DNA of 64,000 nt from a virus, in the IMG/VR virus record IMGVR_UViG_3300031787_010241, positions 101,623 through 165,622 of that record, one strand, 5' to 3'. Shown piece after piece: positions 2,664 through 61,635 of the stretch. The translations under genes were made by a program, and so were the position numbers. Each line of letters begins with the position of its first letter. The first letter of the stretch is position 1. The notes beneath the pieces are model-generated. The model was not told the origin of the DNA and did no database searches. It saw only the letters and a list, made by a program, of their open reading frames with translations.

Positions 2664-3482
2664 ATGAGAAAATTATTAATTACCGAAGAAGAAAAAAGTC
2701 ATATAAAAAAACTACACAATATAAATGAGCAATCTTTTATTGAAAAGGCACTTGCTTTATCAATAAAGAAAATGTTTGAGAAACCCTCCAAAACCCCAAG
2801 CTCATCAGAAGAAAAACCATCGGAAACAGGCACCACTAAAAGTTCACCTGTAAACGGTGATGTGAAAATTGTTGGTAATTTTGATTCTGAACAACAAAAA
2901 AATATAAATTTTTTAATAGATAAAATGAATGAGGCGGGTATAACAAACCCCTATACTCAAGTAGGTATTTTATCAGTTATTAATAAGGAATGTAATTTCA
3001 AACCTAAAAGTGAGGTTTCATACGCAACCACGGCCAATAGTAGAATTAGAAAAATATTCGGTAAAAGAGTGGCCGGATATAGTGATAGTGAATTAAACGC
3101 ATTAAAAAGTGATATGAGAAAATTTTTCAATGTAGTTTACGCTAAAACAGTTGGTAATCAAGGTGGAGACGATGGTTTCACGTATAGAGGTAGAGGGTTC
3201 AACCAACTAACCGGTATTAAAAATTATGAAAAATATAGTAGAATGATTGGTATGGGTGATGAGTTAGTTAAAAATCCAGATTTAGTTAATGACCCTGAAA
3301 TCGCAGCAAAAATCGCAATCGCATTTTTTACTAAAGGTAAATCCGCATCAACTTTCCCAAACTTTACAGACAAAAAAGAGGCTGCGGAATATTTTGCCGA
3401 TATAAATGCGGGAGGAGGTACTAGCTCACATAGAGCTAACGCGGTTGCCAAAGTTGATAACTTTGAGATTAACGTCGCGTAA
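2664..3482 (+). CDS. GH19 lysozyme/chitinase with capsid-targeting-like leader
   Basis: A 272-aa protein of glycoside hydrolase family 19, which in phages cleaves peptidoglycan. The catalytic region begins near residue 85; candidate acid/base Glu109 (VINKECNF) and Glu117 are in the expected places, and YRGRGFNQLTGIKNY is the family substrate-cleft motif. A low-complexity Ser/Thr/Pro/Glu linker (about 40-65) separates this domain from the first 25 residues, MRKLLITEEE through NINEQ, which match the leader family in this window with ITE and INE cleavage-like sites. There is no signal peptide. It may be packaged in the virion rather than act only as the lysis endolysin; no holin or spanin is seen nearby. 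Confidence 0.88.
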   Translation: MRKLLITEEEKSHIKKLHNINEQSFIEKALALSIKKMFEKPSKTPSSSEEKPSETGTTKSSPVNGDVKIVGNFDSEQQKNINFLIDKMNEAGITNPYTQVGILSVINKECNFKPKSEVSYATTANSRIRKIFGKRVAGYSDSELNALKSDMRKFFNVVYAKTVGNQGGDDGFTYRGRGFNQLTGIKNYEKYSRMIGMGDELVKNPDLVNDPEIAAKIAIAFFTKGKSASTFPNFTDKKEAAEYFADINAGGGTSSHRANAVAKVDNFEINVA

Positions 3483-3545
3483 AAATATTAAATATTTTAG
3501 TTAAAATAATATTTGTTATGTGATAAAAATAGAATGGTATTTTTC

Positions 3546-4067
3546 TCATGATAAATAATATGTGATACCTTTACTCCAGTAATCACCATATTCTTTAAAT
3601 ACTTCCAAATCAATTTCACCATATCTAATTTTGGTGATTATTTCAATCCCATCGATAACTTCAGTAATTACCGGCTTTAATTTATCAGAATCGAATTCTT
3701 CATCAAGTTCAATCTCATAATTGAAGAATTGTCCTTTTGTGTAATCTTCTACAATAAGGTAATTTTCTTTTCCGATTATAAACTCGTACTCGTCTTCTTT
3801 GAATTCATGGTCATTTTCTGATGACCATACTTTAACCTCATTTTCGTTGAATACTTCGATTATAAAATTTTCGGGGTCATTGTAAGGACCGAGATAGATA
3901 TTATCGGTTTCGAAGATATCATTTTTATTTAATATTTCAATAATTTCTTCGTGTTCGCAATTGTCATTCTCGACATCACACTCAAACAATTTCGACTTTT
4001 GATTTTCGTCAATAGAATGGACGTAGCATTCTGCGCCACGTCCACTCACAATGATTTTATATTTCAT
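3546..4067 (-). CDS. 173-aa acidic hypothetical protein
   Basis: Begins MKYKIIVSGRGAECYVHSID. It is strongly acidic, with alternating hydrophobic and charged residues that suggest beta-rich structure. No domain recognised. Its start overlaps the stop of the upstream 77-aa gene by 4 nt (ATGA), so the two are translated together. Confidence 0.72.
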   Translation of the reverse strand: MKYKIIVSGRGAECYVHSIDENQKSKLFECDVENDNCEHEEIIEILNKNDIFETDNIYLGPYNDPENFIIEVFNENEVKVWSSENDHEFKEDEYEFIIGKENYLIVEDYTKGQFFNYEIELDEEFDSDKLKPVITEVIDGIEIITKIRYGEIDLEVFKEYGDYWSKGITYYLS

Positions 4068-4297
4068 TTCTCAATAACCATGTTTGTATTAACAATCGGT
4101 ACTCGTAATACGGGAATTGCTGAATACCCTGATGGTGCGGTTGAGCTATCAACTCTCTGCATTATTTCATAGTAACCGTCCAAAGGTTTTACGGTTGATA
4201 TGTTTTCGTAATGAAATACTACTTCATCCGGAATTGATGCTGAAAAAACTCGAGCGGTTTTGTCTGTTGTGTTAAATACTAGTTTCTGTAATGACAT
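4064..4297 (-). CDS. 77-aa hypothetical protein
   Basis: Begins MSLQKLVFNTTDKTARVFSA. It has a neutral, beta-strand-like composition with several Pro residues. No domain recognised. It is the first gene of a two-gene unit with the acidic protein at 3546-4067. Confidence 0.68.
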   Translation of the reverse strand: MSLQKLVFNTTDKTARVFSASIPDEVVFHYENISTVKPLDGYYEIMQRVDSSTAPSGYSAIPVLRVPIVNTNMVIEK

Positions 4298-4352
4298 ATA
4301 ATTATTAATTTGACATAAACATACTAAATCAAATATGAAAAATCAAATGTTT

Positions 4353-4925
4353 TTACCTAACAACTGTAACATGACCAAAAATTATTTCAGGTTCTCGGTC
4401 AATACCCTTCCAAGTAACCTTATATTCGTAGACATCATTTTGAACGTAATATTCTCCACCTCTAAAGTTACCAATCCATTGTCCTTTTGGGTCAACTGAC
4501 TTAAATACAAGTACCCCCCATCTGTCAAATACTAATACTTCTATACTTTCCCATCCTGTTCCTTGGGGAAACCAAGTATCGTTAAACCCATCATCGTTTG
4601 GAGTAAAAGCATTTGGAATATAGATTGAAGAACATTCCCCAATGAAAACTTTAAACTCCATCGGGTTTGACCTACATCCATCACTTTTTCCATAAACTTT
4701 AATTGTATGGACTCCAGGAGAATAAGTTTCCCAATTGACGGTCAGGGTTTGTCCAAAATGATAGATACCATCTACGTACCAATAAAATGTTGTATTTGGT
4801 GTATTAGACTCTATCGAATACGTATATTCTGTTTTAGATTCGTCTTCGCATATGTCTATCTTTTGGTCTTGTCCTGAAACAATCATGACCAACAAAAACA
4901 ACAAAAGTGTTTTTATTTGTTTCAT
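4353..4925 (-). CDS. Secreted protein with T9SS type B sorting domain
   Basis: A 190-aa protein with a signal peptide (MKQIKTLLLFLLVMIVSG), a short Ig/PKD-like segment (about 25-97) and a C-terminal gliding-motility-associated (CHU_C) domain at about 98-190. Diagnostic motifs are IPNAFTPNDDGFND, VFDRWGVLVF and the terminal GHVTVVR. In Bacteroidetes this domain sends proteins through the outer membrane by the type IX secretion system. The protein would therefore be exported by the host machinery to the cell surface. It is the last gene of a run (6691 to 4353) in which the two preceding genes have signal peptides but no sorting domain, as if one surface protein had been divided over three genes. 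Confidence 0.88.
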   Translation of the reverse strand: MKQIKTLLLFLLVMIVSGQDQKIDICEDESKTEYTYSIESNTPNTTFYWYVDGIYHFGQTLTVNWETYSPGVHTIKVYGKSDGCRSNPMEFKVFIGECSSIYIPNAFTPNDDGFNDTWFPQGTGWESIEVLVFDRWGVLVFKSVDPKGQWIGNFRGGEYYVQNDVYEYKVTWKGIDREPEIIFGHVTVVR

Positions 4926-24357: not shown

Positions 24358-24771
24358 TTAAAATCCAAACCACCTTAATACTTTATCAATAATATCCGAA
24401 TGTTCATTTATACATTCCTCTAATATTTTAACGTCAGATTGTGGCATTTTATCTTTTGTATCGGGGCCCAATATCCCATCAGTAGGAAAAACTCCAATGT
24501 TACTTTGGTATTTTTCAACGGCTTTACTTGTATTATCACCGGCTAAACCATCAACTACTAAACCCGCATTCATTCTTTTATTTAAAAAACACTGAATAGA
24601 TTTTGTAATATTTGCTTCCTCAGTTTGTTCCCGCAACAATGGTTTAACATCACCAAGTTTGGTATTAACAAGTTTATCGAAATTTTCGATTACAAGTTTC
24701 TTACCGCCAGTGTGTTGCTCACGAATTCTATTTTTTTCCTCTTCGGATAAGTCATTCAATAAATGTTTCAT
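24358..24771 (-). CDS. Peptidoglycan-binding-domain protein with leader
   Basis: A 137-aa protein. The N-terminal 30 residues (MKHLLNDLSEEEKNRIREQH...KLVIEN) are a leader variant related to the family here. Residues about 58-110 form a PG_binding_1 domain: IQCFLNKRMNAGLVVDGLAG, ALEKYQS-like SKAVEKYQSNIGVFPTDGIL and GPDTKDKM. This domain binds cell wall and is common in phage lysozymes, but here it is without a catalytic domain. Packaging in the virion is inferred from the leader. An ATATTTAT motif lies about 20 nt upstream. Confidence 0.8.
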   Translation of the reverse strand: MKHLLNDLSEEEKNRIREQHTGGKKLVIENFDKLVNTKLGDVKPLLREQTEEANITKSIQCFLNKRMNAGLVVDGLAGDNTSKAVEKYQSNIGVFPTDGILGPDTKDKMPQSDVKILEECINEHSDIIDKVLRWFGF

Positions 24772-24799: not shown

Positions 24800-25129
24800 T
24801 TATATCGTTTTTGTTATTGTAACCAAACCTGTTTTGAAATCTCCTACCGGTTTCACACTCAATATCAAATTGAGATTACCAATTTTACCTTTAGCAGATA
24901 AAGCTCCCGTTCCGATATTATACCCATCTGTTTGAATATGGAATAAATTAAGTTGGATTGGTGAATTATTTAACTTCGATAAAAAATCGTCAGGAGTAAA
25001 TGTCTTATTATTAAGTTTAATCGTGTTAAATTTTCTGATATACTCTGAAAAATCCTCGGTCTCTTTAGGTTTAGTCAATTGCTCATCAATCAACTTTTCC
25101 ATTTGAGATTCTGTTAATACAATCTTCAT
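24800..25129 (-). CDS. Leader-bearing protein, 109 aa
   Basis: The start MKIVLTESQMEKLIDEQLTK is a clear member of the leader family, with LTE and IDE sites. The remainder, about 85 aa, is beta-rich (FHIQTDGYNIGTGALSAKGK, ILSVKPVGDF). An ATATTTAT motif stands 4 nt before the ATG. Function after delivery unknown. Confidence 0.78.
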   Translation of the reverse strand: MKIVLTESQMEKLIDEQLTKPKETEDFSEYIRKFNTIKLNNKTFTPDDFLSKLNNSPIQLNLFHIQTDGYNIGTGALSAKGKIGNLNLILSVKPVGDFKTGLVTITKTI

Positions 25130-26507: not shown

Positions 26508-27097
26508 AACCACTATTAATTACCTCACTTTTTTTGTCCCTGAACATTTTTTCATACTGTCAATCCACAGAAAAAACTTTGGGCAATAAAGTAATGACAG
26601 TTGACGAATTAGAAAAAACTATGTTGGTTATTAAACCGAACGTAAAGACGTTCTCGATTGATTCATTCAATGTGTATTTTGAAAAAAATTACAATAAATA
26701 CCGTAAATCAAAAGGTTTAGAATTTGTTTCATACGATAAATCAATCGTAAAGGTTGCAACTGAACAATCTTCTTACTGTTTGAAGAATGGTTACTTGGAC
26801 CACAAACAACCTACATCTTCAAAAGAAGACGTTGATGAGAGATGCGATTTGTATGGTGTTAATTATGTTGACGTTCGTGAAAACCTAATGATGGGTCACA
26901 TGATTTATCCCGTCCTTATTGTTTATGAAGAAGGAATGAATTATTATGACTGTTTGAGTTTGGTAGTGTTAAAATGCTGGATATTAAGTCCTGGTCATAA
27001 TGACACATTATTGAGTGATGGTCAAACTTTTGCAGTGGGCATCTCATACAATAAAGAAAACGAAATGGTCGCTTGTTTTGTATTAGTTTCCTCCTGA
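26504..27097 (+). CDS. Secreted CAP/SCP-domain protein
   Basis: A 197-aa protein with signal peptide (MKPLLITSLFLSLNIFSYC) and a CAP (cysteine-rich secretory/pathogenesis-related 1) domain. Characteristic pieces are FNVYFEKNYNKYRKSKGLEF, VATEQSSYCLKNGYLDHKQP with the His-containing loop, ENLMMG near residue 127, and WILSPGHNDTLL with a second His. CAP domains are typically extracellular; in bacteria their activity is poorly defined. It is paired with the lipoprotein gene upstream. Domain identity is inferred by motif order. Confidence 0.8.
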   Translation: MKPLLITSLFLSLNIFSYCQSTEKTLGNKVMTVDELEKTMLVIKPNVKTFSIDSFNVYFEKNYNKYRKSKGLEFVSYDKSIVKVATEQSSYCLKNGYLDHKQPTSSKEDVDERCDLYGVNYVDVRENLMMGHMIYPVLIVYEEGMNYYDCLSLVVLKCWILSPGHNDTLLSDGQTFAVGISYNKENEMVACFVLVSS

Positions 27098-28294
27098 TTG
27101 ATAAGCGGCACATAATTTAGGATTTATACTCAAAAATCCTGCTAATTTATCCCTGAAATTAAATGAGGATGACTTACCTTTTGGTTTTGGTCTTTTAACC
27201 GGAGTTGGTGGTGGTATAATTTTACCGTCAATATCCAATGAGTAATTGAAAACTTCAACAGGTGACTGTGTGGTTTCCTCTGTCTCTATCGTGGCGGCTA
27301 AAACAATTTTCACTTTTAAATATTTGTATTGGTTATATTCTTCAGGTGTTGCGTGAGGTTCTCCAAATTGGTTTCTTGGTTCGGTAGATGTTGTATTCAT
27401 TTTAACATTACCTCCATTAACATAAGCATTTGGCTCAGGAGGATTAGGTCCTGTGGTACCATCACCATTACTTCCTAAATATTGTTGAGTTGGGGTTACG
27501 GTATCCGTCTCGGTGACACCATTTTCTTTTAATGAATTAATTATATAATCTTTGGCAGAATTGTTTCTATATCCTGATAGCTCTTGAAAAGTTAAATCGG
27601 ATGCCCGCCCGGTATTTCTATATCTTGATGCAGAAGTTTGAATATCCAATGACTTCAATGATATTATCGCATTTGGGAATTGTTCTTTCGCAATATTTAC
27701 TTTACTTAGAATATTTTGATTATAAGATTCAATGGCTTCTGGAGACAACTCCCACTCATTATTAACATATAACTGAATATTGGTATCAGGATTCCATTCA
27801 ATTGGGAATTCTACCGTACCACCGATAGATTCGCCAGGAACGGTTTCTGTTGTTTCTGTTATGGTTAATACCATATTTTTTTTCAAACTATCATTCCATT
27901 TTTCATAAACTTCATTAACAAGATTTTGAGCTAGCTCGAAGGCTGAAATTAATGAATCTCTTTCTGAAATAGTCGCACTTGAAGATAGAGGAGTGTTAAA
28001 CTTTTTCAATAATCCATTGAATTTACTTCTATCATCCGGAGTTTTAGTGATGCTTCTTATACCATCTGATAATAATAAATCAGGGTTATCGGGTATACGA
28101 TTTTTTACTATTTTCCTTAGAGTTGTAGAGTTGAATGGTTTTATATTTTCATTATACCATTTTACCCATTCGTCATATGAATATTCCAAAATATTGTCGG
28201 GTATGACAACATTAGAAACATTGGTCTGTTCAGTTATCAACCCATAGAGTCCCTTAATATATTTTTTTTCCTCTTCGGTAATTATAAATTTCAT
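27083..28294 (-). CDS. Leader-bearing protein, 403 aa
   Basis: The N-terminus MKFIITEEEKKYIKGLYGLI followed by TEQ is a leader with ITE and LITEQ sites. The body contains a helical region with VNEVYEKWNDSLKKN, then an OmpA/peptidoglycan-like stretch SLDIQTSASRYRNTGRASDL near residue 205, a Pro/Asn/Thr linker and a Pro/Lys-rich C-terminus (IPPPTPVKRPKPKGKS). LKSLDIQTSASRYRN recalls OmpA-like C-terminal domains, but the match is uncertain. No signal peptide. Probably packaged in the head if the leader works as supposed. Confidence 0.75.
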   Translation of the reverse strand: MKFIITEEEKKYIKGLYGLITEQTNVSNVVIPDNILEYSYDEWVKWYNENIKPFNSTTLRKIVKNRIPDNPDLLLSDGIRSITKTPDDRSKFNGLLKKFNTPLSSSATISERDSLISAFELAQNLVNEVYEKWNDSLKKNMVLTITETTETVPGESIGGTVEFPIEWNPDTNIQLYVNNEWELSPEAIESYNQNILSKVNIAKEQFPNAIISLKSLDIQTSASRYRNTGRASDLTFQELSGYRNNSAKDYIINSLKENGVTETDTVTPTQQYLGSNGDGTTGPNPPEPNAYVNGGNVKMNTTSTEPRNQFGEPHATPEEYNQYKYLKVKIVLAATIETEETTQSPVEVFNYSLDIDGKIIPPPTPVKRPKPKGKSSSFNFRDKLAGFLSINPKLCAAYQSGGN

Positions 28295-28308: not shown

Positions 28309-29202
28309 TTAACCTTCAGCTTCAGGAGCCGGTGTCTCAACTTTAGTCTCAGGCATCTTTTTTGACATAAGTATTTCCATGAGCTTGTTTATAGTAGCTT
28401 GGTCCATTTGACCTGTTTTTGTAACTCCACCAGCGAAGGCCGGGTCAATCTCCTTTAATTTGTTCTGAACATTTGTTACATGTTGAGCATGTTTGTAAGG
28501 TTGTGGAGCACCACTTGTCTTACCTCCCTTTTGTTCTGGATTGGCTTGTACTCTTGACGAATTTTTGAAAAATGCATCATCACATGTGTAGGTACTATAA
28601 CTTCCTTTACCATATTGGTTACCATCAATAAAATAAGTAAATTCACCTATTTTATAAGCAACAGTGCCTGAAACATTAGTATCGGTACGGGGATTGGCAA
28701 TTTTTTGGGCTCCGGGATAGTTTACAACACATGGGAATTTTTGTGACCAATCAGCCACTTGTTGCTCTTCTGTTTTTTGTGTCTCAGGTTGAGCTTGAAC
28801 GGTTGATTGGTAATTAATAACAACACTTTCGTTTCTATTTTGGTCGAATGTCATCGTAGCACCAAGTTTAGCCAAGTGACTCTGAAACGCCTTTAAGCTT
28901 GCTCTATCGGTTGCTTCTTGTGGGTTAAATTCATCGTTAATTTGACCTTGTAGACCAAGTTGACCATAACCACTCTTCAAAAGAGCATCAACATTTTTCA
29001 ATTGTTGTAAACTAGATATTGCTTGTATTGCGGTTAAAAAATCACTACCTGTACCAGGTCCATACGATGCTTTATATATTCTACCGGCAATATCTTTATC
29101 TGCCGATTGTTCGTTAATCAAATATTGATTCTTGGTTGCCGATTCATGTAGATTGAGAATTCTTTCTCTTTCTGAGTTGTCTAAAAAATATAAATTTTTC
29201 AT
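28309..29202 (-). CDS. Leader-bearing protein with peptidoglycan-binding-like end
   Basis: A 297-aa protein with long leader MKNLYFLDNSERERILNLHE...YLINEQ (about 1-33), ending in the INEQ site. The middle contains ALKAFQSHLAKLGATMTFDQ, like a peptidoglycan-binding helix. The C-terminal part HVTNVQNKLKEIDPAFAGGV...GQMDQATINKLMEIL resembles PG_binding_1. Gln/Pro linkers separate the parts. This suggests a cell-wall-associated role after injection. It follows the 403-aa gene in the same orientation. Confidence 0.74.
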   Translation of the reverse strand: MKNLYFLDNSERERILNLHESATKNQYLINEQSADKDIAGRIYKASYGPGTGSDFLTAIQAISSLQQLKNVDALLKSGYGQLGLQGQINDEFNPQEATDRASLKAFQSHLAKLGATMTFDQNRNESVVINYQSTVQAQPETQKTEEQQVADWSQKFPCVVNYPGAQKIANPRTDTNVSGTVAYKIGEFTYFIDGNQYGKGSYSTYTCDDAFFKNSSRVQANPEQKGGKTSGAPQPYKHAQHVTNVQNKLKEIDPAFAGGVTKTGQMDQATINKLMEILMSKKMPETKVETPAPEAEG

Positions 29203-31456: not shown

Positions 31457-31500
31457 ATAAAAAAGGGGGTAGGGGGAATCGGAACGGAAAAAAATTTTTT
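31457..31500 (-). repeat. Intergenic cassette repeat, copy 3
   Basis: The G-rich left half is identical to copies 2 and 5; the right half has diverged (ATCGGAACGG instead of CCCGAAGGG). Confidence 0.7.
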
Positions 31501-35693: not shown

Positions 35694-36059
35694 ATGAAAT
35701 ACTTAATCACAGAATCTAAATTGTATAATACAGTGTCTATGTATTTGGATAATCAGGATTTTATAGTATATGACAACAAGAAGAAATTTGACAACTACAT
35801 ATACTTCTTAAACAATGAGTCCGACCTTTACGCTCAGATTAGTGTTTATCACATAAACTCTTTTGGTTTTGTTAGGAATTGGGTATATGTAAATTATGAT
35901 TTAATTAAGGAATTATCTGATTTCTTCTCTATTGATGATTTGGATTGTTTAGAGATAATAAAAGTATGGGTTAGTGATACTTTGGGTATTAAGGTTGGTA
36001 AAATAGAAAACACTATCAACAGTGGGTCTTCTCACAGATTAATTGTTAAAACCGAATGA
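35694..36059 (+). CDS. Leader-bearing paralogue, 121 aa
   Basis: Leader MKYLITESKLYNTVSMYLDN then QDFIVYDNKK. Same plan as the gene at 35353, with an insertion in the strand region (YAQISVYHINSFGFVR) and the helix LIKELSDFFSIDDLD. Its TGA overlaps the ATG of the next paralogue (ATGA). Confidence 0.8.
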   Translation: MKYLITESKLYNTVSMYLDNQDFIVYDNKKKFDNYIYFLNNESDLYAQISVYHINSFGFVRNWVYVNYDLIKELSDFFSIDDLDCLEIIKVWVSDTLGIKVGKIENTINSGSSHRLIVKTE

Positions 36060-36373
36060 AATTCCTTATCACCGAATCTAAACTTACTAATCTTGTCTTT
36101 GACTACTTAAATAACCAGGACTTTTATAAAATGAAGTATCACTCTGGTTATGTCTTTTGGGACTCTAAGGAGAGTTGGGAAAGTGGTGGATATATATCAA
36201 TCAACACAAATCGTGTTAATAAAGAATGTTTTGTAAGTTCAGATTTAGTTGTTGAGGTCGCATCATTCTTTAGTTTGGACTTGGAGACCGCTTTGAATAT
36301 TATTGGTGAATGGATTAAAACCAAAATTGATTTTGATTTTGACTATATCTTCTCTGATTACGGAGCTGACTAA
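36056..36373 (+). CDS. Leader-bearing paralogue, 105 aa
   Basis: Leader MKFLITESKLTNLVFDYLNN then QDFYKMKYHS. Plan as in the two upstream genes: VSSDLVVEVASFFSLDLETA and IIGEWIKTKI. It is coupled to the upstream gene by ATGA and so has no motif of its own. Confidence 0.8.
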   Translation: MKFLITESKLTNLVFDYLNNQDFYKMKYHSGYVFWDSKESWESGGYISINTNRVNKECFVSSDLVVEVASFFSLDLETALNIIGEWIKTKIDFDFDYIFSDYGAD

Positions 36374-36374: not shown

Positions 36375-36800
36375 TTAACAATTTCCTACCTGAACGTATA
36401 TATTATATCCTCTCACCTTTTCATTTCCAAACTTTTTTATTAAGTCAGATATATAATCTCTCGCCTCAAATGTTTTTTGTTTGTTTGGGTAATAATCATC
36501 GGAATGGTTGGGATAATATTTTGGTATTTCTACATATAGTTTAAATGAGTACATGGTCGGAACTATTTGATAGTTACATACATTACCCAAAACTTCAACA
36601 TCATGTTCCATTATGGCTTTAACAATGAAAATCATTTCTTCCTGTGAACCTTTTATATTAAGAATACTATTCATAATATCAACTCCACCTAACATTTTGG
36701 ACGTTATATAAAATCCATGTTTGGAAATCATGTCTTTTATATTGGTTTTAAGTAAAGTTTCTTCCCTTAATATTCTTCTTATGGATTCTTTAATACTCAT
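36375..36800 (-). CDS. Leader-bearing protein (REE class), 141 aa
   Basis: Leader MSIKESIRRILREETLLKTN, the KESIxxILREE class with IKE and LRE sites. The body is a mix of helices and strands (HGFYITSKMLGGVDIMNSIL, TMYSFKLYVEIPKYYPNHSD). Resembles the last module (residues 427 onward, DLVKEFGLIKTSDMVGLSI) of the 618-aa protein at 37888, suggesting a shared fold. ATATTTAT 6 nt before the ATG. Confidence 0.78.
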   Translation of the reverse strand: MSIKESIRRILREETLLKTNIKDMISKHGFYITSKMLGGVDIMNSILNIKGSQEEMIFIVKAIMEHDVEVLGNVCNYQIVPTMYSFKLYVEIPKYYPNHSDDYYPNKQKTFEARDYISDLIKKFGNEKVRGYNIYVQVGNC

Positions 36801-36832: not shown

Positions 36833-37144
36833 ATGAAATATCTTATCACCGAATCTAAATTTGATAGTATAGTTTTTAAGTATCTTGACAATCAGGACTT
36901 CGTTGTAATTAAAATGGGGAATAGATTATACTATGTCAACTCTGAAGATGATGAATATGCTCAAGTTAGATATCATCCGAAAGACCGCTGGTGTACAATA
37001 CACTACGACTTGGTCGACGAAGTTAGCAAATTCTTTTCTTTAGATTATGGGGACTCCATTAATGTAATTAATAAATGGATTGAAAATAAACTCGGAATAA
37101 AATCTATTAATGTGGAAGTTGCCAGTCCGATTGTTGGGTATTAA
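36833..37144 (+). CDS. Leader-bearing paralogue, 103 aa
   Basis: Leader MKYLITESKFDSIVFKYLDN then QDFVVIKMGN. The strand YYVNSEDDEYAQVRYHPKDR and helix YDLVDEVSKFFSLDYG are very close to the paralogue at 35353 (YFVNSESDEYAQIRFDKDGR), so this pair is the most recent duplication in the cluster. Confidence 0.82.
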   Translation: MKYLITESKFDSIVFKYLDNQDFVVIKMGNRLYYVNSEDDEYAQVRYHPKDRWCTIHYDLVDEVSKFFSLDYGDSINVINKWIENKLGIKSINVEVASPIVGY

Positions 37145-37159: not shown

Positions 37160-37495
37160 ATGAAATTCCTAATCACCGAATCTAAATTAAACAGTATTAT
37201 TTTTAATTATATTAATTCACTAAATCTTGAGGCGGTTTATTGGACAAGTTATATAAGTTTTGTTTATTCTTTAGACGATACACACGCCGTTATGAGGTAT
37301 AGAAGAAGGTCAGGTACTTTAATAATATCCGAAGATTTTATAAACAGTGTATGTGAATTCTTTTCTATTGATAAGGATGAGGCCGAATTAATTCTCACCC
37401 ATTTTGTTGAGGAAAACTCTAACTCCGGTAAGATTGAACCTTCGGATGTCAAAGTATACGGTGGTCTGATAGGTGACGCCGAACTATCAATGTAA
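37160..37495 (+). CDS. Leader-bearing paralogue, 111 aa
   Basis: Leader MKFLITESKLNSIIFNYINS. More divergent body but same framework: YISFVYSLDDTHAVMRYRRR, EDFINSVCEFFSIDKDEAEL, and a short C-terminal part. Function unknown. Confidence 0.78.
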   Translation: MKFLITESKLNSIIFNYINSLNLEAVYWTSYISFVYSLDDTHAVMRYRRRSGTLIISEDFINSVCEFFSIDKDEAELILTHFVEENSNSGKIEPSDVKVYGGLIGDAELSM

Positions 37496-37507: not shown

Positions 37508-37891
37508 ATGAAATACCTTATCACCGAATCACAACTTAATCTTATATCCGAACTTGAACGTCATTGGATGGATTTTGAGTATGAGGACCTATACAATAAG
37601 TTTAAACATATCATCGTTCCTTATATTGTTGATGAGATTGAATCATATAGTGAGGATAGTAATAGAATTGTCCTATACGATTCAGCCGGTAATCCTATGA
37701 TGATGTTTTCTATTTTTAGTGATGGTAAAACGGGTGATTTATACTACAGCCATAAGTATGATGGGTTTTTTGAGGAGATGTTACCTCACCCTGTTTGGAT
37801 GACCAATGGTAAATACTTTATCTCTGATGCTTTTGAATCTATGCTCCCCGACTATAAGGTCTTTGATGTAAGAAGCGGACGTATCGTCTAA
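37508..37891 (+). CDS. Leader-bearing protein, 127 aa
   Basis: Leader MKYLITESQLNLISELERHW. The body differs from the five upstream paralogues (GKTGDLYYSHKYDGFFEEML) and has an acidic helical first half. ITE site at residues 5-7. It overlaps the end of the large multi-module protein gene on the other strand by 4 nt. Confidence 0.78.
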   Translation: MKYLITESQLNLISELERHWMDFEYEDLYNKFKHIIVPYIVDEIESYSEDSNRIVLYDSAGNPMMMFSIFSDGKTGDLYYSHKYDGFFEEMLPHPVWMTNGKYFISDAFESMLPDYKVFDVRSGRIV

Positions 37892-39744
37892 CCTCTTTGT
37901 TTTATTTCGTAATCAACCAACTTATGCATTTTTGGTAATAACGTATTCATTACCATATTATACACTTCAGGTAAATAGAATTCCTCATACCAATTCAATA
38001 ACTCATCAACACTTTCAAAATTTGTTTGATGTTTAAGTTCTTTATAAAAATTTCCTTCACCTGATGTTTCATAAACAGTTACCCCATAATAATTAAGTAA
38101 TGTATACCATTCTATTTCAACAGGTGTATATTTGACTCCATCCCAAAATGGTGTTGCCGCAACTGTTATGTTTTCAATCATATCATCATGGAAATGTCCT
38201 GTTTTTACCATTGCTTCCCAATAAAACACGTCATTTGAACTTGCGTGAATATTAAAATCTTTGTATTTGGTTTTCAATTCATCGTTATTCATCATTTCGA
38301 CCAAAATTTGGTTGGCGGTATCTGAATCAATCGGTATATTAGTTACTTTAACAATTTGTGATATCGACAACCCAACCATATCTGAAGTTTTAATCAAACC
38401 AAACTCTTTAACCAAATCACTTATAGTTTCTTTTGCCTTTCTATCTTCCTTTAATACCGATTCATTAACCTCTCCCGACATAATCTCATTCCATCTTTCT
38501 TCCATTACATCCGAATAATGACTCAATAAGAATTCCCATACTTGGTTGTAAAAATCCCCAGCTCCAAAACATACGTCAGAGTATTTCATACATAAATCAA
38601 CAATAACATATGATACAATACCTGACTTAAACTTATCTAAGTTCATTGCGTGCCAATTATGTTGGTTCTGAATGTATCTTGTTGTCATTGTATCAAGACC
38701 TTCTCCGAATATTCCGTCCATCTTTTCGGGGTCAACCCTTCTGAATATTCTTCTCATCATTGAGCTCATTTCTTCCCTTAATATTGACTCATTAACAACA
38801 TTCCCCAAGTTATCATATTTTATAAGTTCAGTGTTTATAAACACATCAGCATTTTTCTTTCTCGAATCCCAATTAAATATCCAATCTGGACAAACAACAA
38901 TATTTCCTGAAGTCCATTCCTCAATATCTCTTGATATTTTTTCATCAAACCACGACTCAATGTTTGCTGCAGTATCATCAGAGTCAAAATAAATTATAAG
39001 TAAAGGTTTTCCGTTGAAAGTTGATTGTTTTATAAATGATATATTATCATATAAAGTATAGATTATATTTGTAACCAATTTTACTTTATATTCTTCGGTT
39101 TCTTCCCTTAATACGGACTCTCGTATATTCAATTTACTTTTCAGATAATCAACTAATGGTTCTTCCACTTCAATGTATGAATCCCAATAAGATTGTTCTG
39201 AATCATTGTTAAGTTTGAATTGTTTTGAAGCGATAAATTGTCTTACCGTATCGTATATCGCATCTGACTCATCGTAGCCAGAATCAATTAAACTTTTAAT
39301 ATCATGTATTAATTCGGCCAATGAGTCACCATTAATCCTCCTTTTAACTTGGAGTGGTATATTTGTTTCTTCTAATACTGATTCAAAAACATCCCCCCCA
39401 ACAATATCATCATATCTCTTTTTTATTCTATCACCATAATGTTTAAGGAGCGGGTTTCTCACTTCTTCGATATAAGCATCGTCATTACCATAATAATATG
39501 AATTTCCATCCATGTTTATTTGGTCCTCCATATACTCAACCATATCATCAATAACGAAATTTGCGAACGTTATAAAAGAAGCTTTGTGTAACATGGAACC
39601 TGGCTTGGTTTTCAACATTGTATTACCGTCCAATGCCGTTTGAAACGCATTTTCAATTAGTTTGGGTAAAATCCTCCTTCTAATTTTAAGTGGTATATCG
39701 GTTTCTTCCCTTAATATTCTTTTAATTGATTCTTTGAGATTCAT
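37888..39744 (-). CDS. 618-aa protein with five leader-motif-separated modules
   Basis: Start placed at 39744 (MNLKESIKRILREETDIPLK), the REE-class leader. The motif recurs inside the protein: ESVLEET at about 121-127, RESVLREET at 208-216, NESILREE at 318-325 and NESVLKED at 427-434, dividing it into five modules of roughly 90-190 residues. Modules 1 and 4 share a C-terminal pattern (LLKHYGDRIKKRYDDIVGGD and LLSHYSDVMEERWNEIMSGE). Every recurrence contains an LxE site. The simplest reading is a polyprotein made by fusion of leader-bearing genes and cut at each motif by the head protease. No other domain recognised. Confidence 0.82.
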   Translation of the reverse strand: MNLKESIKRILREETDIPLKIRRRILPKLIENAFQTALDGNTMLKTKPGSMLHKASFITFANFVIDDMVEYMEDQINMDGNSYYYGNDDAYIEEVRNPLLKHYGDRIKKRYDDIVGGDVFESVLEETNIPLQVKRRINGDSLAELIHDIKSLIDSGYDESDAIYDTVRQFIASKQFKLNNDSEQSYWDSYIEVEEPLVDYLKSKLNIRESVLREETEEYKVKLVTNIIYTLYDNISFIKQSTFNGKPLLIIYFDSDDTAANIESWFDEKISRDIEEWTSGNIVVCPDWIFNWDSRKKNADVFINTELIKYDNLGNVVNESILREEMSSMMRRIFRRVDPEKMDGIFGEGLDTMTTRYIQNQHNWHAMNLDKFKSGIVSYVIVDLCMKYSDVCFGAGDFYNQVWEFLLSHYSDVMEERWNEIMSGEVNESVLKEDRKAKETISDLVKEFGLIKTSDMVGLSISQIVKVTNIPIDSDTANQILVEMMNNDELKTKYKDFNIHASSNDVFYWEAMVKTGHFHDDMIENITVAATPFWDGVKYTPVEIEWYTLLNYYGVTVYETSGEGNFYKELKHQTNFESVDELLNWYEEFYLPEVYNMVMNTLLPKMHKLVDYEIKQRG

Positions 39745-40543: not shown

Positions 40544-40849
40544 ATGAAAAAAGTTGTAAGATTAACTGAATCTGATTTGATTAAACTCGTTAAAAGAATT
40601 ATAAAAGAAAGTGAAGAAGAACAGGATAATGATTATCTCTACCATGACCCATCATCTATGGGTAGTGGAAAGTGGTATAAAAATTCTTTTATGAATCAGG
40701 GTGAACCCGAAGAATATTCAGATGATGAACTTGATATTGAGAACATCTCTACTAGGGATGTAGATGATGATGTTATCGACCCTATGTATAAAAAGTTCTA
40801 TTCCAAGAACTCCCCTACAATCAAACGAGCCAAATTAAGAAAACAATAA
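40544..40849 (+). CDS. Leader-bearing protein, 101 aa
   Basis: Start placed at 40544: MKKVVRLTESDLIKLVKRII then KESEEEQDN. Canonical RLTESDL leader. The body is highly acidic and Asp-rich, with a basic end (KNSPTIKRAKLRKQ), probably disordered. Own terminator. TATATTTAT lies about 25 nt upstream. Confidence 0.78.
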   Translation: MKKVVRLTESDLIKLVKRIIKESEEEQDNDYLYHDPSSMGSGKWYKNSFMNQGEPEEYSDDELDIENISTRDVDDDVIDPMYKKFYSKNSPTIKRAKLRKQ

Positions 40850-40943: not shown

Positions 40944-41342
40944 ATGAGATACTTTATTACACAAGGTCAATTACATTCAATCATCTACAATTATTTAGAT
41001 GAGAAGTTTTCAGAATCAGATGGTAAAAAAATTGTAAATGCCCACAATCCTGACGCATATAGAATTGAATTGTTCGCCAATACAGGTTCTGAAAAAATCG
41101 CATATTACTTCTTCGGGACTGGTGAATACGACGATTGGGGTCCAGGTGGTGAAGGGACAAAACATTACGGTCATGGACTGTTACAAGTACATCCTAATAT
41201 TATCGACACAATGCGTCAGATGATTTTGATTAGGGAAACAAAAGTAATAGATATAGTTGCCGATTGGGTTAGCGAAAAGTTTGGAGTTGATATTGATGAG
41301 GTATCAATTTATCCCAAACGAGACAAACCTCCTGTTTATTAA
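40944..41342 (+). CDS. Leader-bearing protein, 132 aa
   Basis: Start placed at 40944: MRYFITQGQLHSIIYNYLDE. The leader is of the ITExQL class with Gln in place of Glu at the expected cleavage position (ITQG), an informative variant. The body ends with IVADWVSEKFGVDIDEVSIY, the same C-terminal helix/strand as in the MKYLITESKL paralogues (WVENKLGIKSINVEV), so it is a distant paralogue. It overlaps the next minus-strand gene by 4 nt. Confidence 0.78.
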   Translation: MRYFITQGQLHSIIYNYLDEKFSESDGKKIVNAHNPDAYRIELFANTGSEKIAYYFFGTGEYDDWGPGGEGTKHYGHGLLQVHPNIIDTMRQMILIRETKVIDIVADWVSEKFGVDIDEVSIYPKRDKPPVY

Positions 41343-42154
41343 TTCTTCTTTGTTTTCTTTACGCAGTTTGGGTATCTTTTACCAAACATTGTCTTCATTC
41401 CTTTTTGTGTATAACCTGGCCAGCACTTTTCTGTTATTTCGCCTTCAGTAAACTCACCCTTCTGTTTATTAAAGAAACGATTTTTTAATTCTTTATAGTG
41501 TTCGACGGTAGTTGTTGATATATTAATACCATATCTAAATTCATCTGAAAAAAAATCTTTGATTAATTTTTTTACATCTAACCCCAATTCTTGTAAATCA
41601 TCCGAGTCTTGTACTTTGAATGGTTTTTTCATTAAAAATGTGATGGTACAACCTTCTCCGTATTTTCCACCAAATGTGTCGGCAACAACACCATAAAAGT
41701 TTTCAGGTAGTTCTTTACCTTTAAGATACGCATTAATAAATCTCATTACTGATTTTTCTAATTTGGTTTTTTCTCCAAAATCTTCGATTTGTTCCGTTAC
41801 TAGTGATTCATCTATCTCAACCCGTTCATTACACATATTATTGAAGTAATCTTTTAGATTTTTTCCGTGGCTATCTTTGATATAATCATATATAAAATCA
41901 ACTGATTTCTCCCATTCTTCTGACGTATCATCCATCATATAAAATGTATTGAAGTATAGGTTCTCGACCACAGCCTCAGTTACAACACGAACAAACATGT
42001 CCGCGTCCTCATACCTTCCACAAATTCTTTTATCATAATATACTATATCTAATAACCTTACGATTTCACTATCAATTAAGCTAGTTCTTCTCATTGCTTT
42101 ATAAGGTCTCATCTCTTCCCTTAATATTTTTTTTATTGTTTCTTTCAGATTCAT
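41339..42154 (-). CDS. Two-module leader-bearing protein, 271 aa
   Basis: Leader MNLKETIKKILREEMRPYKA (REE class), a first module like module 4 of the 618-aa protein (VVTEAVVENLYFNTFYM, YIKDSHGKNLKDYFNNMCNE), then the internal motif IDESLVTEQ near residue 117 and a second module with VMRFINAYLKGKELPENFYG. The C-terminus CWPGYTQKGMKTMFGKRYPN is Cys-containing and basic, resembling a tail found on many large-phage proteins. Probable two-part precursor. Confidence 0.78.
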   Translation of the reverse strand: MNLKETIKKILREEMRPYKAMRRTSLIDSEIVRLLDIVYYDKRICGRYEDADMFVRVVTEAVVENLYFNTFYMMDDTSEEWEKSVDFIYDYIKDSHGKNLKDYFNNMCNERVEIDESLVTEQIEDFGEKTKLEKSVMRFINAYLKGKELPENFYGVVADTFGGKYGEGCTITFLMKKPFKVQDSDDLQELGLDVKKLIKDFFSDEFRYGINISTTTVEHYKELKNRFFNKQKGEFTEGEITEKCWPGYTQKGMKTMFGKRYPNCVKKTKKN

Positions 42155-42158: not shown

Positions 42159-42494
42159 TTAAACTATACCAATTTCACCATAGATTGATTCCCCATTTGG
42201 GCCGAGCACTCTAATATATACTTGATTAAGTTCTCTTCTTGATACATTAACAAATTTAAGTAAATCTATCATATAAAAGTCAATTAAATAATGAGGGTCC
42301 AACCCTTTTTCAAACATATTGAACGTGGTCATATCCTCATCATTAACGTATATTTTTACAGCAATATCATAAAAAGGAAGTTCTTCATCCCCATCCCAAA
42401 GCACTCTGGTTTTAATATTGTCAACCATAGGATATACCTGTTTGATTAAATCACTATTTAATAACTTATCTAATAACTTATTTGTCAGTATCAT
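42159..42494 (-). CDS. 111-aa hypothetical protein
   Basis: Begins MILTNKLLDKLLNSDLIKQV, a Leu-rich amphipathic start that differs from the standard leaders. The body has YDIAVKIYVNDEDMTTFNMF. It lies between two leader-bearing genes and overlaps the upstream one by 17 nt, so it is probably expressed with them. Confidence 0.68.
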   Translation of the reverse strand: MILTNKLLDKLLNSDLIKQVYPMVDNIKTRVLWDGDEELPFYDIAVKIYVNDEDMTTFNMFEKGLDPHYLIDFYMIDLLKFVNVSRRELNQVYIRVLGPNGESIYGEIGIV

Positions 42495-42879
42495 CAGAGT
42501 ATTGTAACTTAATTTCTATATGGTTTAATGATGGTGTAAATGTTTCTTCACCCAACGTATAAGTAAGAACATCACTAATAGCATCTCTAACGTCATCCGC
42601 CTCTCCAACTGAAACAATTTCAGATAACAACGTAGGGTGTTCTATATCACCGAAAGATGGTTCTTTATCACGATTAAATCTTGGCCACTGTTTATCCGCC
42701 CATTCTGAATCAACCGTTAAAACCCCTTCCAATTTAACAAGCTTGGGTCTTAGGGTCATCATTCTTTTAAAGTCAACTACTTTGAGTCCTTTCCACCAAT
42801 CAAACTTTTTGGGCATTTCTTTGTTAAGCACAAACTCAACTATCTTTTCATTTTGTTGTTCGGTGATTAAAAATTTCAT
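42478..42879 (-). CDS. Leader-bearing protein, 133 aa
   Basis: Leader MKFLITEQQNEKIVEFVLNK, ITEQQ class. Body basic then acidic (MPKKFDWWKGLKVVDFKRMM) ending in LQYSDDTDK. ATGA overlap with the membrane protein gene upstream. Confidence 0.76.
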   Translation of the reverse strand: MKFLITEQQNEKIVEFVLNKEMPKKFDWWKGLKVVDFKRMMTLRPKLVKLEGVLTVDSEWADKQWPRFNRDKEPSFGDIEHPTLLSEIVSVGEADDVRDAISDVLTYTLGEETFTPSLNHIEIKLQYSDDTDK

Positions 42880-43534: not shown

Positions 43535-43554
43535 TTTTTTGTTTTTTAAGTGGT

Positions 43555-47467: not shown

Positions 47468-47468
47468 G

Positions 47469-56764: not shown

Positions 56765-57373
56765 ATGTGCTACACAAGAGAACAAATTGAAAGAGCGGTA
56801 AAATCAAAGAATTACAAATGGTTTGAAGACGCAGATAATCAAGGTTATGATGTTAACATTGTTGGTGTTAGAAATAGTCATCCATCAATTAAAAACAAAG
56901 TTACAAATGTATTTGATGATTGTCTTACAATCTCATACAAAGATGAATCAGGAAACTGGCAGTTTTACTGTTGGAACGCAACGACTGACCCAGGTAAGAA
57001 AGGGGTTCAACAATTCCACAATAAAAAAGGTGTTGCTAGATTGGTTCCTAACCAATACAGAGGTGTTTGGAAAATAGACAAACATCAGGGAAAATATGAG
57101 GCTCTTTGCCAAAGATTAGGTGAAGTTACCGTTTGGAGAGACGCTAACAAAGATTTAATTTTTGAAGAAAAAGTTACCGATACTGGTGTATTCGGTATTA
57201 ATATTCACAAAGCAGGTCAAGACTCTCAGTGGGTTGAAAACTGGTCTGAAGGTTGTCAAGTATTCAAAAGAGTAAAGGATTTTGATGCGTTTATGTCAAT
57301 TTGTAGAAAAGCCGCTAAAATTCACGGTAACAAATTCTCATACACTTTGTTGGAATCGACTGATATTTCTTAA
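56765..57373 (+). CDS. 202-aa protein with possible L,D-transpeptidase-like motif
   Basis: Begins MCYTREQIERAVKSKNYKWF. The middle has TGVFGINIHKAGQDSQ followed by ENWSEGCQVFKRVKDF, which resembles the H-x(n)-SxGC active site of L,D-transpeptidase-like (YkuD) proteins, with His near residue 152 and Cys near 168. This pair is also reported in phage cell-wall hydrolases. No signal peptide or leader. Catalytic role is tentative; a conserved phage protein of unknown function is the alternative. Confidence 0.62.
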   Translation: MCYTREQIERAVKSKNYKWFEDADNQGYDVNIVGVRNSHPSIKNKVTNVFDDCLTISYKDESGNWQFYCWNATTDPGKKGVQQFHNKKGVARLVPNQYRGVWKIDKHQGKYEALCQRLGEVTVWRDANKDLIFEEKVTDTGVFGINIHKAGQDSQWVENWSEGCQVFKRVKDFDAFMSICRKAAKIHGNKFSYTLLESTDIS

Positions 57374-57921
57374 TCGATAATTAATTTTTCAACTCCTATC
57401 TCATAGCCGGTTGTTTCTGTGATTTTTTGATGTAATAATTCATAGATACAATCGGCTATTTCTCCTTCTATCTCCCATCCATACTCTTCGTTATTCAAAG
57501 CATCTTTTAATGATTGACTCTCACCTCCTACCATGATTAATATTACAGTGCCGTTTTCAATGTCAGGTTTGGCAGTTACATAAATTTCACCCGTATCTTC
57601 CTCAACCGTATAATCAATAACACTAAAATCAAAGTTATAACCACCACAATAATTAACGGTGAAGTTTTTTTCTTTCAACATTTCAATCGCCTTTAATTTC
57701 GCATTTTTACCTCCATACCAATTTATTAACATTCTATAGATATTACCCCTCCTCAAGACATTTCCACCTATTTCTAAACCAAAATTGGTAAAACCAAACA
57801 ACTTAAAAAACATATCGTCAACTTTGGGTCCATTCTTATCCCAATACTTAAAAAACATTTTTTGAGCTTTGTCGTAAGCACTTAATCTATCTTGTTGTTC
57901 TTCAGTGATTATAAACTTCAT
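57370..57921 (-). CDS. Leader-bearing protein, 183 aa
   Basis: Leader MKFIITEEQQDRLSAYDKAQ, ITEEQ class. The body contains LFGFTNFGLEIGGNVLRRGN, a mixed alpha/beta fold, and EGEIADCIYELLHQKITETT. Two nt from the next leader-bearing gene; the pair may be one operon. Function unknown. Confidence 0.78.
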   Translation of the reverse strand: MKFIITEEQQDRLSAYDKAQKMFFKYWDKNGPKVDDMFFKLFGFTNFGLEIGGNVLRRGNIYRMLINWYGGKNAKLKAIEMLKEKNFTVNYCGGYNFDFSVIDYTVEEDTGEIYVTAKPDIENGTVILIMVGGESQSLKDALNNEEYGWEIEGEIADCIYELLHQKITETTGYEIGVEKLIID

Positions 57922-57923: not shown

Positions 57924-58463
57924 TTATGTTTTTTTAATTTCAATTTTTTTCTTTTCTTCATCATTTAAACTGTTTAAAAAACTCTGTAATTGTGTTGTAT
58001 CTTTTATGTTTTCGACAAAAGCATTAAATTTGGTCGTTCCGAAATTTTGTTGTCCCCACCTAAAAAATTGCTCTACCCCTTCATTTTTTAAAACAGGTAG
58101 TCCACTTTTATATATCATTTCTAACATTTTCATAAATTCATTTTGTTCCATTCCGTATAATTTGGCAAACCTCAAATATTTTCCTAATGCCAAAGGGCTG
58201 GTTATTAATTGTACCATACCCATAAAATTATCTCCTTTTTTTATGGATTCAATACCTTCATAAGTACCTTTGGCCGCCACCAAATACGGACCGATATATG
58301 GAACAAACCATAAGGATAAATCTCTTAAAAAATTTGTTAAAGTAGGATATTGCTTTTCAAATTCTTTTTGACTAGTTTTCATAACTTCAGGATAACCTCC
58401 TGAAGAATATCCTAACTGTTCATTTATGATTTTATATTGGCGTTCGTTAATAATAAACTTCAT
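57924..58463 (-). CDS. Leader-bearing protein, 179 aa
   Basis: Start at 58463: MKFIINERQYKIINEQLGYS, with INE sites at two positions. ATATTTAT 4 nt before the ATG. The body is helical and hydrophobic in places (DLSLWFVPYIGPYLVAAKGT, LITSPLALGKYLRFAKLYGM), so it may interact with membrane. It begins with Gly/Ser after the leader (YSSGGYPE). A packaged effector is proposed. Confidence 0.78.
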   Translation of the reverse strand: MKFIINERQYKIINEQLGYSSGGYPEVMKTSQKEFEKQYPTLTNFLRDLSLWFVPYIGPYLVAAKGTYEGIESIKKGDNFMGMVQLITSPLALGKYLRFAKLYGMEQNEFMKMLEMIYKSGLPVLKNEGVEQFFRWGQQNFGTTKFNAFVENIKDTTQLQSFLNSLNDEEKKKIEIKKT

Positions 58464-60604: not shown

Positions 60605-60625
60605 TTGAATATTTTACTATAAATA

Positions 60626-60901
60626 TTACCTTTTGTCTAATTTCAGGGCAACATCACCTTCGATTGAGAAAAATCTTACGTGGCTCTTGAAAAACTTATA
60701 AACGTAGTAATTTATGATTTTGTCTGTGAGGTAACCGAGAGATGGTTTATCGTAATAAAACCCTTTGAATTTATGGTAAGTTGGTAAGATTGTGTCAGTG
60801 TTATCTTTTTCGTAATAATCCAAAAAAACCTCTATTGTTTCACCTTTTGGTAAAGGTATAACGATTGGGTTTTTACTGTGTATTTTTAGAATCATCTCCA
60901 T
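60626..60901 (-). CDS. 91-aa hypothetical protein
   Basis: Begins MEMILKIHSKNPIVIPLPKG. Beta-rich with aromatic residues (YHKFKGFYYDKPSLGYLTDK). No domain recognised. It overlaps the end of the upstream gene by 29 nt. Confidence 0.65.
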   Translation of the reverse strand: MEMILKIHSKNPIVIPLPKGETIEVFLDYYEKDNTDTILPTYHKFKGFYYDKPSLGYLTDKIINYYVYKFFKSHVRFFSIEGDVALKLDKR

Positions 60902-61322
60902 CTGTTATCGCCAAGTATCTTTTTTCGAATTCATTGATGTTATCAAGACCAACTTCATTGATATGGTCTAACACATCATCTAAAAAAATATTACTTTTAA
61001 CGAAACTATCAATATCTTCAAATAACTTTTTTCCGATTAATTCGGGATATTTGAAATATACATCAGAAATATCATAGATATCAAAGATTAACTCCAATCT
61101 ATTAAGCATTTTTTCTACTTTCTTTTTGTTTTCTTCATCCACCAGTAGAATATCATGAACAACGTCATAATCATCTATAATGCTTTCATTTGGCACTTTT
61201 TCAGACAACTCTCTTGTCCATTTCTTTTCTTCCTCCGTCATCTTTTGATACAATAGTTTGTCTAACGCCTCTATTCCAAGCGCATACTGTATCTTTATCA
61301 ACTTCAAACTTTTAGTGTCCAT
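60873..61322 (-). CDS. 149-aa helical hypothetical protein
   Basis: Begins MDTKSLKLIKIQYALGIEAL. Acidic, helical with YQKMTEEEKKWTRELSEKVP. No recognised motif. Between a leader-bearing gene and the 91-aa gene. Confidence 0.68.
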   Translation of the reverse strand: MDTKSLKLIKIQYALGIEALDKLLYQKMTEEEKKWTRELSEKVPNESIIDDYDVVHDILLVDEENKKKVEKMLNRLELIFDIYDISDVYFKYPELIGKKLFEDIDSFVKSNIFLDDVLDHINEVGLDNINEFEKRYLAITDGDDSKNTQ

Positions 61323-61329
61323 AAGGTTA

Positions 61330-61635
61330 TCATTTACCTATCACCAACTCATCATAATTAAGTTTATCCATCCCTGTTGTTTGATTGTCATCAACAAATT
61401 CATCATACATATAATTCTTCACCACAGCAATGATACTCTGCTCACATTGAGCAATCTTACTTTCTTCCCAGTCTTCCAACTGTTCATTATCATCCATCGA
61501 TTCCCACATTTTATAAGCCAACGTGGCAATTGTGAATAATTGTTTTTTAGTTATAGAATCTTCACCTTCGTGATTTTCCTTCACGATATTAACTAACTTA
61601 TTTAATTGTTCTTGGGTAATCAGGATATTTTTCAT
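61330..61635 (-). CDS. Leader-bearing protein, 101 aa
   Basis: Leader MKNILITQEQLNKLVNIVKE then NHEGEDS. ITQ takes the place of ITE, as in the gene at 40944. Acidic, helical body (WESMDDNEQLEDWEESKIAQ). Coupled closely to the gene downstream. Confidence 0.74.
   Translation of the reverse strand: MKNILITQEQLNKLVNIVKENHEGEDSITKKQLFTIATLAYKMWESMDDNEQLEDWEESKIAQCEQSIIAVVKNYMYDEFVDDNQTTGMDKLNYDELVIGK

Follow-up and report, generated by a model that had tools for sequence, protein, structure and literature searches.

Candidate capsid-targeting leaders on dozens of unrelated proteins in a large T4-like phage

The internal proteins of the T-even phages are described, in the extracts of the literature on which we draw, as diverse defense proteins among which only the capsid-targeting sequence (CTS) is conserved (PMC3012670), and ten residues of the T4 CTS are enough for targeting, with residues 4 and 7 serving chiefly for targeting and residues 8 and 10 for processing (PMC9026906). 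T4 Alt is, according to an extract of the same account, a head protein that is ejected into the host and is an ADP-ribosyltransferase (PMC9026906). For the giant phages of the SPN3US/phiKZ type, the available excerpts report a prohead protease, gp245, with the motif A-x-E, together with head ejection proteins; two of the head proteins lose a short propeptide at the N-terminus, 20 residues long in one and 24 in the other, by a cut after Glu (PMC10052503). We describe here short N-terminal leaders that recur on proteins with different bodies in a 64,000-nucleotide stretch of viral DNA (hereafter the window), corresponding to bases 101,623–165,622 of the 165,622-base IMG/VR record IMGVR_UViG_3300031787_010241; coordinates are those of the window unless the record is named. 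The leaders are likely to be capsid-targeting propeptides of the T4 internal-protein kind, with sequence classes of their own, that would be cut by an S77 protease and whose cargo may be delivered into the next host.

The original prediction had placed three classes of leader on about 30 proteins and listed 26 positions, if its range 35353 to 37508 is counted as six genes; all 26 coordinates are ATG starts that open with the leader attributed to them. The (L/I)-x-E sites that it had seen in the leaders are present within residues 1–26 of 25 of the 26 proteins, as compared to three of 26 in residues 57–82, and the sole exception, the protein starting at 61635, has V-x-E at residue 20. Its description of the bodies as unrelated comes close to being correct: they form 22 families (BLASTP, E <= 1e-3) rather than 26, because five proteins with MK(Y/F)LITESK leaders (35353–37495) are paralogues. 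When each class was written as a degenerate DNA pattern, the window contained six matches to class 1, nine to class 2, and three to class 3, whereas 100 dinucleotide-preserving shuffles per pattern yielded zero.

The full phage genome is probably about twice the size of the record, because a 322,372-base record, IMGVR_UViG_3300031951_000001, carries the same genes in reversed order and is identical to ours over 60 bases at each of the 12 points tested. Leader models trained on the window leaders and scanned over the remainder of our record gave a divided outcome: the class 1 model found three held-out leaders at start codons (record 40550, 67807–68196, and 90148–90582) at 22.8–25.8 bits versus 11.9 for the best reversed protein, whereas those for classes 2 and 3 found none clearly above control, the best new scores being 6.4 and 7.3 bits against reversed maxima of 7.2 and 5.3. 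Additional leader types were picked by eye in two window genes (24358–24771 and 28309–29202) and in seven genes elsewhere in the record. The record-wide comparisons below therefore use 35 leader genes, 26 found by the models and nine by eye; genes 2664, 40944, and 61635 were missed by the models and remained among the 201 control genes, and including them brings the total to about 38.

Leaders of the same classes are widespread in IMG/VR. The class 1 DNA pattern matches at least 120 stretches, and the 80 loci analyzed contain 96 matches that reduce to 92 distinct leaders with the consensus MKKIIRLTESDLTRIVKRVINEQ (read by eye). Information content is about 1–3 bits to residue 22, reaches 3.1 bits at E22 (84 of 92 leaders), and falls to 0.1–0.5 bits from residue 24 and 0.1–0.3 bits from residue 25; positions 13–22 were left free by the search pattern, yet are conserved. 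All 92 have [LIVM]-x-E within residues 15–32, compared to 17 of 89 in a control stretch of equal length, and the 89 class 1 bodies fall into 74 clusters. In class 2, with one representative per family and the largest family left out, there is a second-site peak at E15 (28/121), and [LIVMF]-x-E occurs in residues 8–27 of 77 of the 121 representatives versus 39 in residues 31–50. The three classes together comprise at least 639 distinct leader proteins of 60 or more amino acids in at least 347 body families, 257 of them singletons; this set includes our own record and phage immuto, and near-identical proteins count singly but share one family.

A prohead protease, which the original prediction had proposed to look for elsewhere in the genome, is present (record 53343–54068, minus strand) and is of the S77 (T4 gp21) type. 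It matches Peptidase_S77 at E 7.6e-26 (87 bits, cut-off 27), the PHROG head maturation protease at E 2.8e-43, and T4 gp21 (PDB 5jbl) at E 1.5e-15, with residues 54–196 aligned including SRGxGSL, and it reads NHP where the 5jbl chain has NAP. The same record encodes a Gp23 capsid protein (E 2e-73), a T4 portal (2.1e-77), and a T4-type terminase (6.1e-14). The capsid propeptide is predicted to end at SHLINE/ATSDG (a slash marks a predicted cut), and alignment to mature T4 gp23 starts at capsid residue 65, a few residues past LINE/A. The Glu at the propeptide end is invariant in 31 of 31 aligned capsid proteins (our own, 28 from leader-bearing records, and two from named phages) and precedes A in 28 of them and S in three. 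Leader ends are of similar style: IINE, VINE, IITE, or ILRE. S77 proteases were found in 20 of 32 class 1 leader records, which were selected from among the longer contigs in the 80 loci, and in 12 of a further 23 (20 virus records and three bacterial metagenome-assembled genomes, MAGs), including all 11 leader-bearing virus records of at least 250 kb that were tested; Gp23 was present in 30 of 30 records tested, 20 of which had been preselected for S77. We regard it as very likely that the S77 protease cleaves the leaders.

Leaders are also exchanged between homologous bodies, with 19 of 90 multi-member body families using more than one class. The body of record gene 90148–90582 has a class 1 leader here and class 2 and class 3-like leaders in relatives (MKFIITESQ, MNYVITESQ, MEIIISESQ, MNIESIIRRVLVEE, or MNINEIIKKVLREE; 77–85% identity), and the homologue encoded by phage C48C1 (Kyanoviridae), 65% identical across 61% of the query, begins with MKKFKQYIDE, which has a T4-type look. 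In a second family, the proteins at record 42817–43548 and in loci L287 and L300 start with MLSEIIKKVLRE/, MIEDIIKKVLNE/, and MNQQEKFFLLNE/; they differ up to LNE/ or LRE/ and align thereafter at 61–78% identity. The record protein of this family has no match among named phages at E <= 1e-5. We judged the boundary between leader and body on such explicit cases; local alignment of the 21 best cross-class pairs did not help to place it, since there is weak alignment between the leaders too. We also note that the C-terminus of the 42817–43548 protein (L004:4817-5548) is a leader-like helix (ESLEKLVKKIIREIVQD).

Two window genes with class 3 leaders appear to encode cargo polyproteins. The first (37888..39744, minus strand, 618 amino acids) has an N-terminal leader and five modules: module 1 (residues 15–126, 39367..39702) follows ILREE, and modules 2 (127–215, 39100..39366), 3 (216–325, 38770..39099), 4 (326–434, 38443..38769), and 5 (435–618, 37891..38442) follow the junctions ESVLEE/T, ESVLREE/T, ESILREE/M, and ESVLKED/R. 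Homologues were sought outside the window and the near-identical loci L029, L237, L238, and L243. Modules 1 (L236, L235), 2 (L192, L080, L187), and 5 (L236) have standalone homologues in which a class 3 leader ends exactly at the module start; the boundary is slightly offset in the module 4 homologues, and module 3 has no homologue at E <= 1e-3 beyond the window and those four loci. The second gene (41339..42154, minus strand, 271 amino acids) has two modules, 15–121 (41792..42112) and 122–271 (41342..41791), joined at ESLVTE/Q. Its module 2 stands alone in L236, preceded by MLKQRILME/ with its end precisely on the module boundary. It is a single gene behind MNLQEHIKKVLREE/ in L249, displaced from the boundary by some four residues, and is internal in L245. 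The motif ES[IVL][LV]xE, which was chosen post hoc, occurs five times in the 52,226 residues of called genes, always at these junctions. Of the leader, the junctions retain the cleavage half but not the first half, which by analogy to T4 would be the targeting half, and it is difficult to account for this arrangement without cutting at the sites. Internal leader copies also lie far from the start codon in several relatives. Further proteins of two or three modules with internal class 3 copies were seen in L235 (open reading frames L235(-)3917 and L235(-)3016), L240(-)5971, L247(+)3140, and L234(+)1474.

The upstream regions of the leader genes are distinctive. TATTTAT, a late-type motif, is present in the 60 bases preceding 27 of the 35 leader genes of the record compared to 48 of the 201 others (p 2.5e-9), divided as 19 of the 26 model-found and eight of the nine by-eye genes; the 48 others include the protease, scaffold-like, and terminase genes as well as leader genes 2664, 40944, and 61635. 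The motif TANNTTTG, which we take to be a Bacteroidota promoter type, is upstream of none of the 35 but of 36 of the 201 (p 0.004). Among IMG/VR leader genes, TATTTAT accompanies 69 of 92 in class 1, 99 of 213 in class 2, and eight of 14 in class 3. The enrichment of the one motif and the absence of the other would be in keeping with late expression of the leader genes. Leaders and bodies are broadly alike in codon choice; S10, V16, and R18 deviate. Selection would thus act mainly on the peptide.

Most cargo bodies have no assigned function. A scan with Pfam, PHROGs, and NCBIfam of 100 of the longest of the 347 family representatives gave few named functions, with Nudix, GNAT, lysozyme, peptidoglycan-binding, and alpha/beta hydrolase domains among the matches listed. 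Window genes with a named domain are 2664–3482 (GH19) and 24358–24771 (peptidoglycan binding), along with 60149–60604 (DUF5856), which is not a clear leader gene. The largest cargo family has 88 members, five of them in the window (35353–37495). The model of its member at 35353..35676 has a mean predicted local distance difference test (pLDDT) score of 92.7, in which residues 1–10 average 66, the remainder is at least 90, and residues 1–6 are coil; it has no fold match in the PDB (best E 0.41). One family of 137 amino acids, found in relatives only, resembles the KptA/Tpt1 ADP-ribosyltransferases in its predicted fold (Foldseek E 1.2e-5, probability 1.00; TM-score 0.52 by query length; pLDDT 73.6 from eight sequences), while a PDB sequence search returned nothing at E <= 10. 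In its leader, residues 4–7 and 9–18 are below pLDDT 50 and a helix is predicted at 3–14.

The identity of the capsid site, the late-type promoter motifs, the exchange of leaders, and the polyprotein junctions support cleavable capsid-targeting leaders, and to this extent the original prediction is borne out, whereas the likeness to the T4 CTS does not extend to the leader sequence itself. We propose that dozens of cargo proteins, unrelated to one another, are produced at a late stage of infection, and that an N-terminal amphipathic leader would dock each of them to the prohead core. The S77 protease, which is expected to trim the major capsid protein at LINE/A, would, to judge by the identity of the motif, remove the leaders at the same (L/I)-x-E/ sites and also split the cargo polyproteins into single modules. 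The freed bodies would then stay in the head beside the DNA and enter the next host cell. By analogy with T4, packaging of the leader proteins in the head is likely, and their delivery into the host somewhat less so, though still the better guess. Whether a widespread group of large T4-like phages, probably of Bacteroidota, has in this way a general cargo-loading code, we regard as evenly balanced. In such a code, interchangeable leaders, each with a targeting and a cleavage half, would load dozens of effectors per phage, a single leader would bring in several effectors as a polyprotein for the protease to split within the head, and the injected anti-defense arsenal would include ADP-ribosyltransferase folds as well as many uncharacterized ones.

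Several observations weigh against this interpretation. The leaders are unlike MKTYQEFIAE, and the T4-type pattern is found at two of 306 start codons in the record outside the window; the near-identical record of 322 kb has three among its 876, and no leader gene is among these matches. The residue after the predicted cut (P1') is mostly Q, E, S, or N in the leaders as opposed to A or S in the capsid protein. Eight of the 35 leader genes have no TATTTAT of their own, and nine of the 35 were chosen by eye. Several bodies are peptidoglycan hydrolases or binders, which could serve lysis or the tail. S77 was missed in some of the virus records shorter than 250 kb, in which a fragmented genome would look the same as a true absence, and in three Bacteroidales MAGs with single leader genes. 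The body of record gene 90148–90582 occurs in 11 records of named phages, of which C48C1 alone has a recognizable leader: the homologue in Pelagibacter phage HTVC008M has none, and the other nine records are mostly phages of 18–54 kb with a partial match. The class 1–3 models gave nothing above threshold in the stretches of Mel-JY01, RM378, and HTVC008M that were scanned and just one marginal class 2 match in C48C1, and leaders of these classes are absent from the scanned immuto sequence. A search of named phages with the consensus leader also gave no match at E <= 1, a result that does not imply absence since the 23-residue query is insensitive.

The alternative that survives best, although we think it unlikely, is that the leaders are head-maturation propeptides on proteins that remain structural or core parts of the virion (scaffold, head wall, or tail) and are not injected. 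It would fit a leader gene that sits between the protease and a scaffold-like gene, the leader genes that adjoin the protease in L284 and L291, and the lysozyme-like domains among the bodies. However, the protease–scaffold position is occupied in only two of the 20 stretches of head genes compared, and the near-identical record supplies one of the two; accessory cargo better suits both the 347 body families and the presence of an ADP-ribosyltransferase-like body.

A leader that localizes proteins to another phage compartment or membrane site, with (L/I)-x-E incidental, is improbable. The strong amphipathicity of the leader, with a hydrophobic moment of 0.79 versus 0.29 in body windows, would suit many docking roles, and the three MAGs just mentioned have leader genes without S77; against this, the motif at the leader end is that of the capsid propeptide, the polyprotein junctions retain the cleavage-like half alone, and S77 is present in every tested virus record of at least 250 kb. 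Least credible of all is that the repeated N-termini reflect gene-family descent or a nucleotide-level element linked to the mRNA start or promoter, for although five window proteins are true paralogues, TATTTAT is linked to leaders, and codon usage at a few leader positions departs from that of the bodies, the 347 families, the exchange of classes on homologous bodies, the broadly body-like codon usage, and the internal copies far from a start codon all speak against it. Simple descent is thus rejected, the five paralogues excepted, and a nucleotide-level or promoter-only explanation is disfavored by the codon usage and the internal leader copies.

Returning to capsid-targeting leaders as the preferred reading, the window genes that carry them are placed as follows, on the basis of the ATG start, the leader match, and the positions of (L/I)-x-E, all cleavage sites being predicted. 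Six class 1 genes lie on the minus strand at 29207..29455 (82 amino acids; predicted sites after E9 and E22), 29467..29721 (84 amino acids), 29762..30040 (92; leader end AINE/S), 30054..30425 (123; IINE/Q), 31911..32285 (124; VINE/Q), and 32655..33032 (125; IIKE/E), and a seventh on the plus strand at 40544..40849 (101; IIKE/S). The class 2 genes on the minus strand are 24800..25129 (109 amino acids), 27083..28294 (403, with a second site LITE/Q at 22 and no upstream TATTTAT), 30496..31035 (179), 31499..31807 (102), 42478..42879 (133; sites E7 and E15), 57370..57921 (183), and 57924..58463 (179; E7 and E15). On the plus strand, class 2 includes the five members of the largest cargo family at 35353..35676 (the one with a predicted structure), 35694..36059, 36056..36373, 36833..37144, and 37160..37495, followed by 37508..37891 (127; E7 and E15), and a class 2-like leader precedes the GH19 chitinase/lysozyme-like body at 2664..3482 (sites E8 and E22, INE/Q). 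The ITQ variants are at 40944..41342 (plus strand, 132 amino acids; its only L-x-E at 20) and 61330..61635 (minus strand, 101 amino acids; the protein with V-x-E alone). Beside the two polyprotein genes, class 3 has one member at 36375..36800 (minus strand, 141 amino acids). The further leader types, both picked by eye and on the minus strand, are MKHLLNDLSEEEKNRI.. on the peptidoglycan-binding body at 24358..24771 and MKNLYFLDNSERERILNLHES..YLINE/Q at 28309..29202 (297 amino acids), the latter without upstream TATTTAT.

The closest named isolates by capsid protein are Microcystis phage Mel-JY01 and the Flavobacterium phages immuto (about 40% identity, 57–66% query coverage). In the cultured Flavobacterium phage vB_FspM_immuto_2-6A, which grows on Flavobacterium sp. 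LMO8, two proteins (L008 25061–25456 and L010 13675–14139; genes immuto26A_41 and immuto26A_188) share the leader MKKQILSEQF(K/R)RMQ(F/K)LAGIITES, which by its sequence is another candidate leader type. In bacterial genomes the leader pattern occurs on four contigs. Three belong to Bacteroidales MAGs and have a single such gene apiece, and the fourth is a short contig of another MAG; in the Bacteroidales contigs (L324, L326, and L327) these are class 1 genes, which in L324 and L327 stand amid seemingly ordinary chromosomal genes, and the L327 body is ADP-ribosyltransferase-like by eye. We infer a Bacteroidota host from the TANNTTTG promoter-like motifs, the Flavobacterium-phage capsid relatives, and the leader genes in Bacteroidales genomes. 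Elsewhere in the window, a 736-residue protein and then two genes with DNA-methylase-like N-termini (by eye) at 45257–49065 are possibly a restriction-modification-like set, 1798–2223 looks by eye like an FKBP-type prolyl isomerase, and a single tRNA-Glu gene lies at 50831–50903.

If the interpretation is correct, the leaders would offer a searchable label for virion-borne, first-acting proteins among hundreds of unknown phage proteins, and thereby a route to the discovery of counter-defense in large phages, probably of Bacteroidota. They would also supply additional tags with which proteins could be directed into phage heads, and would add cargo polyproteins that are cut inside the head. Among the matches listed, a literature search that did not extend to subscription papers or preprints found neither the leader sequences nor a description of such leaders, and turned up no cargo polyproteins cut inside the head.

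Among the systems with which the locus can be compared, the SPN3US/phiKZ-type phages likewise have many head proteins and short propeptides cut after Glu, but the protease motif is another one, and in the excerpts available no shared leader on unrelated proteins is seen. The likeness to T4 Alt is one of predicted fold type: the fold predicted for the cargo is of the ADP-ribosyltransferase type, but this cargo is a small KptA-like protein of 137 residues that was found in relatives and not in the window. Phage C48C1 appears to use the same principle and has one body in common (record 90148–90582), with a leader of the T4 type. At 57–68 kb of its sequence OQ984149 (L322), five genes have T4-type leaders, MKFKTYLNE, MLDFKNFITE, MLSFKQFVSE, MITFKKYLEE, and MKKFKQYIDE, which are counted among 10 pattern matches at 575 start codons (150 kb). 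Their annotation is in every case hypothetical protein, and the group may represent a cluster of internal proteins in Kyanoviridae. With the gp21-cut T4 proteins IPI, IPII, and IPIII, the leaders share a short N-terminal position on divergent, here putatively late, proteins and an (L/I)-x-E end, and an S77 protease and a gp23-type capsid protein are encoded in the same genome. They differ in that the leaders of the record are unlike the T4 CTS and fall into at least three interchangeable classes plus others, and in the presence of cargo polyproteins with internal sites. T4 taught the principle with three small internal proteins, whereas about 38 leader genes are found here in one record; the principle is known, but the sequences, the scale, the interchangeability, and the polyproteins appear to be new.

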